Assembly: GCF_030063195.1 (NCBI RefSeq)
Contig: NZ_JASISS010000003.1
Location: 124,001-188,000 of the forward strand
Direction: 5' to 3'
DNA: 64,000 nucleotides
From: Cryobacterium sp. PH31-AA6
GTDB taxonomy: Bacteria > Actinomycetota > Actinomycetes > Actinomycetales > Microbacteriaceae
Shown: positions 32,288 to 38,725 of the stretch, in pieces
Layout: each line of letters opens with the position of its first letter
Position numbering within the stretch: position 1 is the first letter of the stretch
Position numbers and translations under genes: made by a program
The notes under the pieces: generated by a model
What the model saw: only the letters and a program-made list of their open reading frames with translations
Database searches by the model: none
Told to the model about the DNA's origin: nothing

Positions 32288-32356
32288 CCTCGCCGAACTG
32301 TGAGTTGTGCACCGTTTCGGGGCCGAAAACTGTACCGAAGTCACAGTTCGGCGAGG
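32288..32356. repeat. 69-bp long inverted repeat between convergent genes
   Basis: CCTCGCCGAACTGTGA (32288-32303) is exactly complementary to 32341-32356. The 37-nt centre holds a second, imperfect dyad (GTTTCGG / CCGAAAAC). It lies between the exporter permease and the GH1 gene, so it can act as a two-way terminator, but the length and nested form also suit a mobile palindromic element. Confidence 0.7.
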
Positions 32357-32371
32357 AACGACGGCGGATGG

Positions 32372-33844
32372 TTAGCGAGCGGCGAGCACCTGCTGGAGCC
32401 AGCGGTAGGAGGATTTGGGCGTGCGCTTGCGGTTTGCATCGAGGAAGTCGACGTGGACCAGTCCGTGGCGCTGGGTGTAGCCCGCCGTCCACTCGAAGCC
32501 GTCGATCAGGGACCGCACCACGAAGGCGCGCAGGTCGACCCCCTCGGCCACTCCCCCCGGCGCGACGGCGTCGAGCGCTGCGATGAGGTGCTCGGCGAGG
32601 TAATCGATCCTCGCCGGATCCTCGACGACACCGTATCGGTCCGTCGCGTCGGCAAACCCGGCGCCGACGCCCGTGATCCAGACCGGCGGCAGCCGGTCGC
32701 CGTAGCGGGCGTGCAGCTCCGCGAGGGCAACGCCCAGGTACTCTGGCGCGATCGCGGCCCCGGTCCCGGTCACCGGGAACTCCCGGAACGGTGTGACGTG
32801 GAACGGGAAGGACACGGTCGTTTCCGACTTCCCCGGCTCGCGCGGCGGGCCGGCGGGGCTCTTCGGCGCGGCCGGGCCCGCCTTGATCCGCGACGGCTGC
32901 ACGTAGTTCAGTCCGTAGAAGTCGAGCGGTTGGTGAATGGTGCGCAGGTCGTCCGGGTCGGTTTCGAGGAGCATCCGGGTTTCGAGCAGGTAGGGCTCCG
33001 GCGGCTCCGGATACCGGCCGAGAAGCGTGGCATCGGCGAAGATGCGGTTGTGCAGCACGTCGAACAGCTCGGCGGCGACCTCGTCGGCCTCCCGGCCGCT
33101 GTCGGCCCGCACGGGCGTGTGCACGTTCGCGATGCCGATCCGCCCGCGCACATCGGCCGCGCGCAGGCCCTGCACGGCCAGGCCGTGGCCCAGCAACTGG
33201 TGGTGAGCGGCCGGCAGGGCCGCGAACCGGCGGGTCTCCCCCGGCGCATCCGTGCCGAGCGCATAACCGTTCAGGAAGACGGTGGCCGGGTCATTGAGGG
33301 TGATCCACGAGTCGATCCGGTCGCCGAAAACCTCGCCGAGCATGTGCGCGTAGTCGCCGAAGCGCAACGCGGTGTCCCGGCCGAGCCAGCCGCCGCGCAG
33401 CCGGATCGGTGTGTCCCAGTGGAACAGTGTCGCCATCGGGCTGATCCCGGCCGTGAGCAGACCATCGAGGAGCCGGTCGTAGAAGGCCAGGCCGGTTCGG
33501 CTGAGCGCGCCGCGGCCGTCGGGTTGTACGCGTGTCCAGGCGAAGGAGAACCGGTAGGCGTCCGCGCCGAGCTCACGGATCAGGGTCAGGTCTTCGTCGA
33601 GCTTATGGAAGTGGTCGGCGGCGACGGATGCGTTCGATCCGTCGACGATCCGGCCGGCTGTGGCGGTGAACGGGTCCCAGCTCGACTCACCGCGGCCGCC
33701 CTCTCTGGCGCCGCCCTCGACCTGAAAGGCCGATGTGCCCGTGCCGAGGACGAATCCGTCCGGAAGACGGTCGCCGAGCTCGCTGGAGCGGTGGGGCCAG
33801 GCCCTGCCCGCTGGGGTGTTGCTACCTGCCGGTTTGGTGCTCAT
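32372..33844 (-). CDS. GH1 (beta-glucosidase) fold protein, catalytic residues missing
   Basis: 490 residues, the usual GH1 length. The fold landmarks are present: FVLGTGTSAFQVEG near the N-terminus, SVAADHFHKLDEDLTLIREL, AYRFSFAWTRVQP, LFHWDTP, FYGLNYVQPS, and FEWTAGYTQRHGLVHVDF. Both catalytic glutamates are replaced: the acid/base motif TLNEP reads TLNDP (about residue 182-186) and the nucleophile motif ITENG reads ITGVG (about 384-388). Codons are clean with no frameshift, so this is a predicted pseudoenzyme, perhaps a sugar-binding or regulatory protein. It overlaps the oxidase gene by 4 bp and is last of three genes. Confidence 0.92.
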   Translation of the reverse strand: MSTKPAGSNTPAGRAWPHRSSELGDRLPDGFVLGTGTSAFQVEGGAREGGRGESSWDPFTATAGRIVDGSNASVAADHFHKLDEDLTLIRELGADAYRFSFAWTRVQPDGRGALSRTGLAFYDRLLDGLLTAGISPMATLFHWDTPIRLRGGWLGRDTALRFGDYAHMLGEVFGDRIDSWITLNDPATVFLNGYALGTDAPGETRRFAALPAAHHQLLGHGLAVQGLRAADVRGRIGIANVHTPVRADSGREADEVAAELFDVLHNRIFADATLLGRYPEPPEPYLLETRMLLETDPDDLRTIHQPLDFYGLNYVQPSRIKAGPAAPKSPAGPPREPGKSETTVSFPFHVTPFREFPVTGTGAAIAPEYLGVALAELHARYGDRLPPVWITGVGAGFADATDRYGVVEDPARIDYLAEHLIAALDAVAPGGVAEGVDLRAFVVRSLIDGFEWTAGYTQRHGLVHVDFLDANRKRTPKSSYRWLQQVLAAR

Positions 33845-35154
33845 TGACCCAGGACTCTTTCCAGATAGCTGTTGCTGAAGCGGCGCTCCGGGTCGAGCCT
33901 GTCACGCACGAGGATGAAATCCGCAAACCGGGGGTAGGCCGGGCCGAGCGATTCGGCGTCACGGTAGTGCATCTTGCCCCAGTGCGGGCGCCCGTCGTGC
34001 GCGCGCATGATCGCCTCAATGGCGTGGAAGTACTCTGCCGGGTCTTCCCGGTGGTACCGGTGCACGGCGATGTAGCCGGTCTCCCTGCCCTGCGCGGTGG
34101 AGAGCCACAGGTCGTCGGCGGCGGCGGAGCGCACCTCGATCGGGAACGAGATGCGCCAGCCCCGGCTGTCGATCAGCGTGCGCACCTCGCGGAGCGCCCC
34201 GGGAATCGCGTGCCGGGGCAGCGCGTATTCCATCTCGTGGAAGCGCACGGTGCGGTTGGCGATGAAGACCCGGTGGGAGGCATCCGTGTATTCGCGGCGG
34301 CCGGTGAGCCGCTCGGCGAGCCGGTTGAAGCCGGGGATCACCGGCGGAAGGATCGCGCCGACGGCGCAGACTCCCCGGTAGACGCCGTTGGCCAGCAGTT
34401 CGTCGTCCACCCAGCCGGAGAGCCGACCGACCGGGGCCCTGGCCGCGTCACCGGGCAGCCGGGTATTGGTTTTGGTCAGGGCGGTCCCGGTGTGCGGAAA
34501 CCAGTAGAACTCGTAGTGGTCGAGCCTGCGGGAGCGTTCGAGGTAGCCGTCGAGCACCTCCTCGAGCGGCTCGGCCGCCTCGACCGCGTGCAGCAGGAAC
34601 CGGGGTACGCACTGCACGGTGATGTCGACGAGGATGCCGAGGGCACCCAGTCCGAGCCTGGCCGCCGGCAACAGCTCGGCGTTTTCGGTTTCGCTGACGC
34701 GCAGCAGCCCGCCGTCGGCGGTGACCATGGTCAGCGCCGTGATCTGGGTGGCCAGCCCGCCGAAGCCGCCGCCGGTGCCGTGAGTGCCGGTGGAGGTTGC
34801 CCCGGCGAGGGTCTGCCGGTCGATGTCGCCGAGGTTGGCCATGGCCAGGCCGTGGGGCGCGAGCAGGGCCGGAATCCGGTGCAGGCGGGTGCCGGCGGCC
34901 AGGGTGACCCGGCCGCCGGCCTCGTCCACGGCGACGAGCCCGGCGAGGTCGTCCAGGTCAAGTTGCACGCCGGGAGCGACCGCGATGCCGGAGAAGCTGT
35001 GGCCGGAACCGACGGCCTTGATCCTGAGGCCGGCCCGCGCGGCGGCGACCACGGCGCGCTGCACGGCACCCACGCTGGAGGGTCGCTCCACCCGCACCGG
35101 CCGGACCGACTCGCTGCCCGCCCAGTTGCGCCACTTCGCGCCGCTCGCGCTCAC
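33841..35154 (-). CDS. FAD-dependent sugar-lactone/alditol oxidase-like protein
   Basis: 437 residues from GTG 35154. The start overlaps the preceding stop as GTGA. FAD-binding type 4 domain (about 15-180): IKAVGSGHSFSGI with the His that is covalently linked to FAD in AldO-type enzymes, and GATSTGTHGTGG. The C-terminal D-arabinono-1,4-lactone oxidase domain ends in RPHWGKMHYRDAE and LDPERRFSNSYLERVLG. Related enzymes oxidise gulono- or arabinono-lactone, or alditols such as xylitol. Substrate not known. It sits between a PLP protein and the GH1-like protein with 4-bp overlaps on both sides. Confidence 0.92.
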   Translation of the reverse strand: MSASGAKWRNWAGSESVRPVRVERPSSVGAVQRAVVAAARAGLRIKAVGSGHSFSGIAVAPGVQLDLDDLAGLVAVDEAGGRVTLAAGTRLHRIPALLAPHGLAMANLGDIDRQTLAGATSTGTHGTGGGFGGLATQITALTMVTADGGLLRVSETENAELLPAARLGLGALGILVDITVQCVPRFLLHAVEAAEPLEEVLDGYLERSRRLDHYEFYWFPHTGTALTKTNTRLPGDAARAPVGRLSGWVDDELLANGVYRGVCAVGAILPPVIPGFNRLAERLTGRREYTDASHRVFIANRTVRFHEMEYALPRHAIPGALREVRTLIDSRGWRISFPIEVRSAAADDLWLSTAQGRETGYIAVHRYHREDPAEYFHAIEAIMRAHDGRPHWGKMHYRDAESLGPAYPRFADFILVRDRLDPERRFSNSYLERVLGQ

Positions 35155-36386
35155 AGGAAGGCCTTTCCTTCGCCGCGATAGGTCGGCAACAGGTCGACGA
35201 CCAGACCGTCGTCGACCACCGCGAACTCGTTGACGTGCTCGCTGAGCTCGCCGGACTTCGTGTGCCGCAGCCACACCCGGTCGCCCGCCCGGAGCCGTGC
35301 TGCGGCGGCGCCGGTGATCGGCGTCTGAACCTCGCCTGCCATCTCGCGCGGCACGAAGGCCAGGCCCTCCGGCCAGACCAGCCGCGGGGTGCGGTCGGAA
35401 CCGGTCGGCCCCGAGGCAATCCAGCCTCCACCGAGCAGGGTGGCGGTCGCGGCGCTGGGCTTGCGCACGACGGAGAGCGCGAAGGCCGCGGCCGGTGCCG
35501 GCCGAAATGCGGAGAAGGTGTCGAAGAGGTGCCCGCCGAAGAACCCGCTGCCGGCGGCGATGTCGGTCACCGAGGTGTCGTCATGGGTGCTCTCCAACGA
35601 GCCGGTGCCGCCGCCGTTGACGAATTCGAGCTCCGCGATCTCCCGCACGGCCGTGACCGCGGCCGCCCGGCGCGCGGACAGCTCGGCGATCGAGCGTCCC
35701 TGCATCCAGCGGATGAACCGGGCCTCGAGCGGTTTGCCGACCGGCATATCGCCGATCCCCGCGATCTGCGCCTCGTAGCCCATCATCCCGACGAGGCGGA
35801 ACCCGGCCCGAGCGGCGATGCCCTCGGCGAGCGAGCGGGCATCCCGCACCGTGTGCAGCGGCGAGCGCCGCACCCCCAGCCGACCGATCAGTGGCGGCTT
35901 CCAGCCGGAGTCCAGCTCGAGGCAGAGCCGGATTCTCTCCCTCCGGCCGGGAGGAAGGACGGCGTCGATGACGTCGAGCTGGTCGAGGGAATCGACCATC
36001 AGGGTGACCCGCGACGCGAGTTCCGGGGACCGGCCGAGGGTGCGGATCGCCCCGGCTTCCGCCGTCGGGTAGCCCACGACGATGTCGGTCATCGTCTCGG
36101 CCAGCCAGAGCGCCTCGGCCAGCGTGTAGGCGAGCAGCCCGTCAAATCCCGGAACGGCGAGGATCGCCTCGATCACGCCGCGCACGCGGATCGACTTGGT
36201 CGCGACCCGGATCGGGCTGCCGGCCGCGCGGGAAAGCAGGTCGCCGGTGTTGTGCCGGAGGGCGCCGAGGTGCAGCGCGGCGATCGGAGTGTCCTGGGCG
36301 GCCGTGGCCTCGGTCAGGGCGGGCCAGTAACGGTCAGGGCTCAGCCAGGGCGAGGCATCCGACCGGACCGACAGATCGATGTTCAT
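35151..36386 (-). CDS. PLP-dependent amino acid deaminase/aldolase-like protein (alanine-racemase fold)
   Basis: 411 residues. Fold-type III PLP enzyme like D-threonine aldolase and D-serine dehydratase: the Schiff-base Lys is in PIRVATKSIRV, VTLMVDSLDQLDVID and LCLELDSGWKPP follow, then VNGGGTGSLESTHDD and a C-terminal beta domain (RAGDRVWLRHTKSGELSEHVNEF) with a His and likely metal site. Actual reaction unknown. First gene of an operon with the oxidase and the GH1-like gene; the promoter must lie in 36387-36490. Confidence 0.9.
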   Translation of the reverse strand: MNIDLSVRSDASPWLSPDRYWPALTEATAAQDTPIAALHLGALRHNTGDLLSRAAGSPIRVATKSIRVRGVIEAILAVPGFDGLLAYTLAEALWLAETMTDIVVGYPTAEAGAIRTLGRSPELASRVTLMVDSLDQLDVIDAVLPPGRRERIRLCLELDSGWKPPLIGRLGVRRSPLHTVRDARSLAEGIAARAGFRLVGMMGYEAQIAGIGDMPVGKPLEARFIRWMQGRSIAELSARRAAAVTAVREIAELEFVNGGGTGSLESTHDDTSVTDIAAGSGFFGGHLFDTFSAFRPAPAAAFALSVVRKPSAATATLLGGGWIASGPTGSDRTPRLVWPEGLAFVPREMAGEVQTPITGAAAARLRAGDRVWLRHTKSGELSEHVNEFAVVDDGLVVDLLPTYRGEGKAFL

Positions 36387-36538: not shown

Positions 36539-38725
36539 ATGCTTCGGTCTCGGCTCGCCGCATCGCGACGGCGAAAAGTGCGACGGAACGGCTACCCGCG
36601 CGCCGCCGTCGCCGCCGGGCTCGTGTTCGTGCTGCTGCTCGGCGCGGTCGCCGCGGCACTCGCTGTGCCGGCCGGGGCGCACGCCCAGACCGCCACGGCA
36701 CCCGCACCAACCGCAACCCCCACGCCGACTCCGACTCCGACTCCGAGCCGGAAGGCGACCCCGGAGCCGCAGGCCCCGACCATCGACTCTCCCCCAGCGG
36801 GCAGCTTCATCGGCAGCGGCAGCACCACCGTCTCCGGCAGCCGGGACGCCGGCCAGGAGATCCAGCTGCTCTCCCCGACCGGCGTCGACCCGCTCTGCAT
36901 CGTGGCCGCGGATGCGAGCACCACCTGGACCTGCACCCACGTCCAGCTGCCAAGCGGCCCGACGGTTAACCTCCGCGTTGTCGTCACCGGGGACCCGACG
37001 CTCGCTGCCGAGCAGAGCGTTGCGGTGCTCGCGGCTCCGAGGATCGTTGGCGGGCCCACCGGCCAGGCCGCCTCCAACGGCGTCGTTCGCGGGACGGCGT
37101 ACCCGAACGCATCCGTGATCGCCGAGCTGGCCGGCGGCCAACGATGCACCTCCACCGCCGACGGCTCGGGAGCCTGGGCGTGCACCTTCGCCGGCGACGG
37201 CCTGGCCAGCGGCCCGGTCGAGGTCACAGCGGCGCAGCAGAGCTGGTTCAGTCTGCCGTCCTCTTCGAACTCGAGCTCCCCCGTCACGCTCAACTTCGAC
37301 GTTGACGCCCCCGACATCCCCCGCCTGTCCTCACCCGCGGATTCCGCGCGGGTGCCGCTCAGTGGGGCAACCTATCTGGGTACCGGAGAGGATGGCGCCG
37401 CGGTCACCGTCTTCGCCGGGCCGTATTCGGTGTGCACCGTGGTGGTTGCCGGCGGAGCCTGGCGCTGCACGGCAGGCGGCGTCGTCGCCGGTTCTTACCA
37501 GGTGCGCATCGTGCAGCAGGATCCGGCCGGCAACGTGAGCGCCGGCAGCCCCGCGATCACCGTGGTCTACGGCGAGACGTCGGCGTCGGCCCCGAGCGCG
37601 AGCGGCACGACCCCGCTTCCGGTGCCGACGGCCGACGGCGACGGCGGGGTCGAGTCCACGGCTCCCGCCCCGTCGCCGGAGTCGGCGCTGCCGACCCCGC
37701 CACGCACGAAACCTCGGGAGTCCGGCGGGGACGTCGCGCTGCCGACGACCGGGCTCGGCGGCGGCTGGAACGACCCGACCCCGTTCACCGCCGCGGTGCG
37801 TCCGCCGGACTCCGGCTTCTCGTGGCTGCAGGCCGCGCTGCTCGCGCTCGGCTGCCTGCTTCTCCTGGCCATCCCCGCCCGCCTGCTCAGCGGAACGATC
37901 ACCCGCGCGCGGGCGGGGCGCCCGCTGTGGAGCGGAACCCCGATCTCCGGCCGCAACCACCCCAGGGACGACTTCGAGCGGGCGCCCACCGTGCTCGTGA
38001 ACCGCTGGCTCCTCGTGGGCGCAGCCCTGCTCGCCGCCGCAACGCTTGTGATGCTGTCCGGTCCGATCGGCAGCCGACCTGCCTACCTGAGGTTACTGGC
38101 CGCGGTCATGATCGCCCTGCTGCTGGTCAATGCGGCCGGCGCCCTGGTTCCCCGGTGGTGGAGCCGTCGGGTGCTGGGGCAAGGCGCATCCGTCACCTTC
38201 CTGCCGCGCTATCTGCTGCTCGTCGGGGTGATGGCGCTGGCCTCACGGGTCTTCGAGGTCCACCCGGCGCTCCTGTTCGGACTTCTCGGCAGCGTCACGA
38301 TCGCGGCCGACGTGCGGCCGGAACGGCGTGGCCAACTCGCGGCCGTGCGCGCGGGAAGCCTGATCCTGCTCGCCGTGGTGGGCTGGTTGCTGCTCGCCGT
38401 GCTGCCGCAGGCCGCGGGTTTCGCCGGCGCGTTCGGCGCCGAGGTCGCCAACAGTGTGGTGCTCGCCGCGATCGGGTCGGCGGCCATCGTGCTGGTTCCG
38501 CTCGGCAGCACCAGCGGGCGCAGCATCCTCGTCTGGTCGCCGCCCGTCTGGGCCGGCCTGACCGCGCTCGCCTTCACGATCATGTTCGCGGTGTTGTCCC
38601 CGACGATGACGCTCGGGCGCGGCGACGGCACGTCCACGCTGCTCTGGGTTTCCGCGGGCGTCTTCGCGGCGCTCAGCACGGGCGCCTGGGCGTGGCAGCG
38701 TTTCGTCTCGCCCGCGGTCGACTGA
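36539..38725 (+). CDS. Ig-like repeat surface protein with polytopic membrane C-terminus
   Basis: 728 residues. Signal/anchor helix at about 23-44, then a TPTPTPTPTP linker (about 60-69). Three Ig-like modules follow (about 77-165, 166-255, 258-345), each with a Cys pair spaced 11-12 residues apart around a W (CIVAADASTTWTC, CTSTADGSGAWAC, CTVVVAGGAWRC). A Ser/Pro-rich stretch leads to a C-terminal half with about nine hydrophobic helices (from about 425). I do not recognise this architecture. Extracellular ligand binding coupled to a membrane domain is inferred. A good promoter precedes it. Confidence 0.85.
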   Translation: MLRSRLAASRRRKVRRNGYPRAAVAAGLVFVLLLGAVAAALAVPAGAHAQTATAPAPTATPTPTPTPTPSRKATPEPQAPTIDSPPAGSFIGSGSTTVSGSRDAGQEIQLLSPTGVDPLCIVAADASTTWTCTHVQLPSGPTVNLRVVVTGDPTLAAEQSVAVLAAPRIVGGPTGQAASNGVVRGTAYPNASVIAELAGGQRCTSTADGSGAWACTFAGDGLASGPVEVTAAQQSWFSLPSSSNSSSPVTLNFDVDAPDIPRLSSPADSARVPLSGATYLGTGEDGAAVTVFAGPYSVCTVVVAGGAWRCTAGGVVAGSYQVRIVQQDPAGNVSAGSPAITVVYGETSASAPSASGTTPLPVPTADGDGGVESTAPAPSPESALPTPPRTKPRESGGDVALPTTGLGGGWNDPTPFTAAVRPPDSGFSWLQAALLALGCLLLLAIPARLLSGTITRARAGRPLWSGTPISGRNHPRDDFERAPTVLVNRWLLVGAALLAAATLVMLSGPIGSRPAYLRLLAAVMIALLLVNAAGALVPRWWSRRVLGQGASVTFLPRYLLLVGVMALASRVFEVHPALLFGLLGSVTIAADVRPERRGQLAAVRAGSLILLAVVGWLLLAVLPQAAGFAGAFGAEVANSVVLAAIGSAAIVLVPLGSTSGRSILVWSPPVWAGLTALAFTIMFAVLSPTMTLGRGDGTSTLLWVSAGVFAALSTGAWAWQRFVSPAVD

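Follow-up and report, generated by a model that had tools for sequence, protein, structure and literature searches.

Repeated loss of the catalytic nucleophile in a GH1-family protein of Cryobacterium under purifying selection

Retaining hydrolysis by glycosidases of family GH1 requires a pair of glutamates, a nucleophile and an acid/base. Departures from this scheme are known: plant myrosinases are active GH1 enzymes with an altered acid/base and a conserved nucleophile, and Klotho and the lactase-like GH1 proteins of animals, in which one or both catalytic glutamates are missing, serve binding. Most known pseudoenzymes come from duplicated genes, frequently those of animals. In the sea hare Aplysia kurodai, domain GH1D1 of akuBGL has an Asp replacing the acid/base Glu; according to the available extracts of the article, the recombinant domain is inactive on O-PNG, and a chaperone role was suggested by the authors (PMC10619976). 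Extracts of a study on beetle polygalacturonases describe members of a glycoside hydrolase family which have lost catalysis and still matter, and tie pseudoenzymes to multigene families (PMC6549527). A search of the open-licence literature returned, among the matches listed, no report of bacterial pseudoenzymes of GH1 or other glycosidases and no such proteins in work on Cryobacterium beta-glucosidases; no open-licence papers were found on the nearest solved structure or on the operon described below. Dead GH1 domains are already known, from the sea hare protein and from Klotho, and a stand-alone family of bacterial GH1 pseudoenzymes seems to be unreported.

The window analysed here, a stretch of 64,000 nucleotides from Cryobacterium sp. 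PH31-AA6, contains a GH1 gene whose features are reported in Table 1, together with those of its operon neighbours. The reading frame starts with ATG and has no internal stops. The match to PF00232 (curated score 22.6) covers residues 25-488 of the protein and positions 3-449 of the 453 of the profile, and is essentially full-length; the equivalog model TIGR03356 (BGL) scores 416 bits, below its curated value of 478.5. Translation of the DNA confirmed what a preliminary, sequence-only reading had described, i.e. a full-length GH1 protein lacking both catalytic glutamates: all the landmarks named there are present, and the motifs of the acid/base and of the nucleophile read TLNDP and ITGVG, with Asp185 in place of the Glu of NEP and Gly392 in place of the nucleophile. 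The motif changes are real, but ITENG, taken in that reading as the expected motif, was not the right reference, as the local ancestral form is mostly ITEGG or ITESG. No signal peptide was seen on inspection of the protein by eye, and a second, canonical GH1 is encoded in the same genome.

Table 1. Coordinates of the GH1 gene, its two key codons and its operon neighbours in the window
Feature	Position	Strand	Description	Evidence
Putative GH1-fold pseudoenzyme	32372..33844	-	490 aa, last gene of the operon	ORF; PF00232, 400.2 bits
Codon of residue 185, acid/base position	33290..33292	-	Asp, Glu expected
Codon of residue 392, nucleophile position	32669..32671	-	Gly (coding-strand GGC), Glu expected
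FAD-linked oxidase, sugar-lactone oxidase kind	33841..35154	-	probable 437 aa	TIGR01679, PF04030, PF01565
PLP protein, alanine-racemase N-terminal domain	35151..36386	-	first gene of the operon	PF01168, 36.9 bits (cut-off 24.1)

The four nearest relatives read, 89-90% identical to the window protein, have intact reading frames, also lack both glutamates, and show N-D-P at the first site and Ala at the second (ITASG or ITANG). A sequencing error as the source of the changes is therefore excluded, and the earlier view that they are substitutions stands. On the basis of established GH1 chemistry, the window protein, which has neither glutamate of a retaining GH1 beta-glucosidase, would be unable to carry out retaining hydrolysis.

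The AlphaFold model of the window protein, built with 32 sequences, has a mean pLDDT of 85.4 and a pTM of 0.89; an intact relative (L040), modelled with the same 32 sequences, reached 84.6 and 0.89. The model has the (beta/alpha)8 fold of GH1: all 50 listed PDB matches are described as beta-glucosidases or beta-glycosidases, the best being 8znv, the beta-glucosidase Cba3 of Cellulomonas biazotea (TM 0.82/0.93). Cba3 (8znv/8znw) is the nearest solved structure both by sequence (423.9 bits) and by fold (47% identity), but it has NEP and ITENG, whereas the window protein has neither glutamate. Blocks of lower confidence fall on loops near the pocket (residues 41-50, 191-200 and 451-460); since similar dips are found in the model of the intact relative, they are no evidence of disorder. 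Another low-confidence loop, at residues ~324-345 (window ~32810-32875), carries lineage-specific inserts rich in Pro, Ala and Gly, amounting in one genome (G005) to ~60 extra residues. Two incomplete copies of the gene (G033 and G044) end with their contigs inside this loop, and a third (G050) is frame-slipped just before it.

Relatives were drawn from 199 genomes, from a collection scan (best 80 of 379) and from 60 fetched regions. Within the genus group (Cryobacterium), an orthologue was found in 55 of 57 genomes; the search gave no match in G001 and a single weaker one in G027. Open reading frames of 450-560 aa are present in 52 of the 55, the others being the two copies which reach contig ends and the frame-slipped one, from a genome rated 83% complete whose PLP gene is likewise split between frames. 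At both catalytic sites 52 genus copies could be scored. The nucleophile Glu is missing in 47 of them, called dead in the following; both glutamates are missing in 22 and the nucleophile alone in 25. Five copies (G002, G006, G020, G021, G051) retain both. The myrosinase arrangement was not encountered: the window protein has no nucleophile, and loss of the acid/base alone occurs in none of the 52.

The residue found at the nucleophile site of the 47 dead copies is Ala in 21, Leu in 17, Val and Ser in three each, Thr in two and Gly in one; the site drifts after the loss, so that no single replacement is selected. Conservation of TLNDP together with ITGVG, for which the sequence-only reading had proposed a check, was not found, as ITGVG occurs only in the window genome among the rows read. 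Close relatives carrying the glutamate, which the same reading would have counted against itself, exist among the more distant members of the genus (the five intact copies), but not among the four nearest relatives. An Arg is found at residue 444 of the window protein, where most rows have Trp (WSLLDNFEW); among the genus loci (L113-L166) this change is seen in 14 of the 47 dead rows, the window included, and in three of the five intact ones, and may thus arise independently of the nucleophile loss.

Farther away, both glutamates are present in 52 of 52 loci (L059-L112 without the genus loci L069 and L075). This set includes one of the five intact copies (L059, i.e. G021) and three loci named Cryobacterium (L079, L102, L111), 55-56% identical to the window protein; the remaining 48 bear other names. 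In a sample of the phylum (70 genomes, 29 GH1 loci read, one per genome) the nucleophile Glu is present in all 27 scorable loci, the other two being one that ends before the site (L250) and a fragment that starts past it (L252). Against this background, chance is a very poor explanation for the changes in the window protein.

The history of these losses was evaluated on two trees. On a maximum likelihood tree of 70 GH1 proteins, from which the motif columns had been removed, at least four changes are needed at the nucleophile and at least eight at the acid/base, and a topology with all 47 dead rows in one clade is worse by 88.9 log units (p-AU 5.1e-5). An rpoB tree of 51 pieces, 50 of them scored and with the scored copies G029 and G039 absent, requires a minimum of three and 11 changes, respectively, and again rejects a single dead clade (p-AU 3.7e-5). 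Both trees thus reject the view that the dead state arose only once, and the dead proteins do not form a clade of their own, a point which the sequence-only reading had put up for checking. The main groups are common to the two trees; G002, G005 and G020 are placed differently or with weak support, and the deep forks within the genus are partly weak. The three or four nucleophile changes are parsimony minima, and a regain by recombination may have occurred in G002, an intact copy which the rpoB tree nests among dead ones. The counts themselves give no direction; loss is the natural one, since every outgroup has the Glu. The nucleophile Glu has been lost several times independently within one genus.

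In the window, the PLP protein, the FAD oxidase and the GH1 protein are encoded in this order on the minus strand, each stop overlapping the next start by 4 bases (ATGA at the junction of oxidase and GH1). The first overlap assumes a GTG start at 35154, chosen for the oxidase because it overlaps the preceding stop; the longest reading frame extends to 35274. The oxidase scores 403.1 bits with TIGR01679, against a cut-off of 292.25. All 41 oxidase rows have the His of the GSGHSF motif, and all 35 rows of the PLP protein the Lys of RVATKSIR; we take both to be functional residues. The locus occupies one chromosomal place: in automatic clusters of reading frames, 57 of the 61 regions contain an M48 peptidase gene and 55 a gene which we presume to be LemA-like. 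Just past the stop of the GH1 gene, at 32288-32356, lies an imperfect palindrome of 69 nt, with arms of 30 nt which are 83% complementary; 11 other near-full-length matches, 73-85% identical and mostly found on both strands, occur in the genome, and the element, placed between convergent genes, is a repeat of the REP or MITE type. On the other side of the operon, a divergent gene (36539-38725) encodes a protein of 728 aa, with low-scoring matches to bacterial Ig-like domains just over the cut-offs and a partial match, below the cut-off, to an FGLLP-type membrane domain.

Among the more distant loci (L059-L112 besides L059, L069 and L075), the genes for the PLP protein and the oxidase adjoin GH1 in 24, along with an MFS transporter in 21, a TetR regulator in 21 and both in 19. 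The other 27, from Arthrobacter, Pseudarthrobacter, Paenarthrobacter, Sinomonas and one Micrococcaceae record, gave no match to either protein in the GH1 flanks available. Neither the transporter nor the regulator is found beside the operon in the window; within the genus, the MFS gene still lies next to three intact (G002, G020, G021) and five dead copies (G025, G032, G039, G052, G054). At an E-value of 1e-20, no PLP protein was matched in G003, G016, G017, G029, G037 and G040, nor in a clade of 17 genomes with dead GH1. The same clade has no orthologue of the oxidase: two genomes are without any match, and the remaining 15 have matches whose identity, where given, is at most 44%, or whose E-values are no better than 1e-4. 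In these 17 genomes the dead GH1 gene is the last one left of the operon, and it is strongly constrained. A fixed link between GH1 and the FAD oxidase is thereby excluded, and no single partner explains all cases.

Selection on the dead copies was evaluated with a codon model written for this analysis, applied to 43 of the 47 dead rows (G005, G011, G022 and G053 were omitted), and with pairwise counts by NG86. The omega of six dead clades is 0.050 (that of the window, five rows), 0.056, 0.047, 0.043, 0.037 and 0.053, and that of the 17-genome clade, fitted with fixed relative branch lengths, is 0.059. The corresponding values for intact proteins are 0.053 in the G006/G051 pair of the genus and 0.041 in four intact outgroups. 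A value of 1 was rejected in every fit, twice the log-likelihood difference being at least 176 for GH1. Pairwise omega lies between 0.06 and 0.23 in all 25 chosen dead pairs and is 0.19 in the intact G006/G051 pair. Purifying selection acts as strongly on the dead copies as on the intact ones: neutral decay is rejected by both approaches, and the early impression of an uninterrupted gene under selection proved correct. The omega of the oxidase exceeds that of the dead GH1 in five of the six clades; the exception is G004/G023/G030 (0.033 for the oxidase, 0.043 for GH1). The comparison with the neighbour is not uniform, since in the intact outgroups the oxidase has the lower value (0.014 versus 0.041).

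The view that the gene is a pseudogene in the making, relaxed after the operon lost its use, would be in keeping with the loss of MFS, TetR, PLP protein and oxidase genes across the genus and with the three of 55 GH1 copies which are incomplete in the assemblies. It is nevertheless very improbable, as the protein is not decaying: omega is as low in the seven dead clades as in intact proteins, and mostly below that of the neighbouring enzymes, and the incomplete copies come from contig ends or from the 83%-complete genome.

The 4-base overlap of oxidase and GH1, found, with starts chosen by us, in 32 of the 44 regions with both genes, suggests that the two may be translationally coupled. It also favours a structural or chaperone role without sugar ligand, the barrel stabilising a partner, i.e. 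the FAD oxidase, or another protein where the oxidase is gone. Such a role, for which the non-catalytic GH1 domain of akuBGL offers a precedent in the available extracts (PMC10619976), is rather unlikely here, although it ranks first among the alternatives to sugar binding. The dead GH1 is equally constrained in the 17 genomes without an oxidase orthologue, and residues of the pocket are conserved, as follows.

The 23 intact rows share 109 invariant positions between residues 26 and 489, and 12 of these vary clearly (entropy >0.5 bit) in the 47 dead ones, including Arg98, Asn184, residue 185, Asn313 and residue 392, all presumably part of the GH1 catalytic network. Gln41, Glu451, Trp452 and Tyr314 are instead retained in 47 of 47 dead rows, and His142 in 46. 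We take Gln41, His142, Glu451 and Trp452 to be the residues by which GH1 enzymes grip the glucose ring. Their retention is unremarkable alone, as 80 of the 109 positions are invariant in the dead rows as well, and it may serve folding. In addition Asn184, which presumably contacts the 2-OH of the sugar, is lost in 31 of the 47, so that the mode of binding must have changed. The proposal of a role in sugar binding or sensing, put forward in the sequence-only reading, would fit the conservation of the presumed glycone contacts.

Two explanations preserve a chemical activity. Nucleophile mutants can regain activity when anions are supplied, or can serve as glycosynthases, and the dead proteins might by analogy catalyse a reaction on glycosides in which the nucleophile comes from outside, for instance as phosphate, as formate or as what the neighbouring oxidase produces. 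In favour of this chemistry, 30 of the 47 dead rows have a small amino acid (A, S, G, T or V) at the nucleophile site, 25 keep the acid/base Glu, and the neighbour belongs to a FAD oxidase family related to sugar-lactone oxidases; such a reaction is possible in lineages combining a small residue with Glu185. It is less so in the window protein, with its Asp185, and as a general account it is improbable: 17 rows have Leu at the site, and Asn184 and Arg98, which a reaction would be expected to fix, drift. Alternatively, another carboxylate of the pocket might sustain a working glycosidase. The fold and many landmarks are kept, and acidic positions 164, 231, 294, 402, 414 and 418, one of which (402) lies ten residues past the nucleophile site, do not vary among the dead rows but do so among the intact ones. 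The same residue is, however, already present at all six positions in seven to 17 of the 23 intact rows, and therefore is not new to the dead proteins, which all come from one genus; we consider this explanation highly unlikely.

Our preferred reading, to which we assign a probability of about 0.5, is that the window protein is a cytosolic, sugar-binding GH1 pseudoenzyme acting as a sensor, partner or chaperone. The ancestor would have been an active beta-glycosidase, encoded in Microbacteriaceae by the last gene of a TetR-MFS-PLP-oxidase-GH1 operon. Within Cryobacterium, several losses of the nucleophile Glu would have come first, followed in some lineages by that of the acid/base Glu, with the fold and the ring-holding residues kept. 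Given this retention, a glycoside or sugar is most likely still bound without being cleaved, and binding may be the way in which the protein works, whether as a partner that depends on sugar, a sensor, a store or a chaperone. In most species, translational coupling would tie its production to that of the FAD oxidase; in the 17-genome clade it would act alone. More tentatively, a single beta-glycosidase may have become, repeatedly within Cryobacterium, a pseudoenzyme that stands alone and responds to sugar, the bacterial equivalent of Klotho-type GH1 proteins; the loss of the nucleophile would have been favoured since holding a ligand without cutting it became the function, and the protein would have outlived its operon in the 17-genome clade.

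The window protein shares with Klotho a GH1 fold under selection and without the catalytic pair, but Klotho proteins are animal and have receptor partners, whereas this one is bacterial, apparently cytosolic and encoded in a metabolic operon. Like the window protein, GH1D1 of akuBGL has Asp at the acid/base; according to the available extracts, however, it keeps the nucleophile (E404), has lost the glycone site and is a domain of a tandem protein (PMC10619976), whereas the window protein stands alone, has lost both glutamates and keeps the presumed glycone contacts. The beetle polygalacturonases, as far as the extracts describe them, belong to another glycoside hydrolase family, are animal and arose after duplication, whereas here orthologues at one locus are involved.

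Whole-cell phenotypes are uninformative on the dead GH1. In the available extracts of PMC10067761, many species of Cryobacterium are described as using cellobiose, salicin and esculin, and beta-glucosidase is given as positive for C. lactosi, C. frigoriphilum and C. adonitolivorans. The orthologues of these three species (L045, L053 and L043) lack the nucleophile, but the genomes taken as theirs (G046, G040 and G055) contain seven, five and five GH1-type matches, and another enzyme could account for the activity.

The family models match all these proteins as glycosidases, and annotations based on them should be considered with caution. With recurrent losses, no loss of the acid/base alone and undiminished constraint, the locus offers a ready natural experiment on how and why an enzyme becomes a binding protein: about fifty related genomes, many from named strains, carry orthologues at one locus at every stage, with both glutamates, with the nucleophile lost, with both lost and with the partners lost. 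In the cold-living Cryobacterium, equal constraint despite the lost catalytic residues points to a new job for this protein, one which does not involve cutting.
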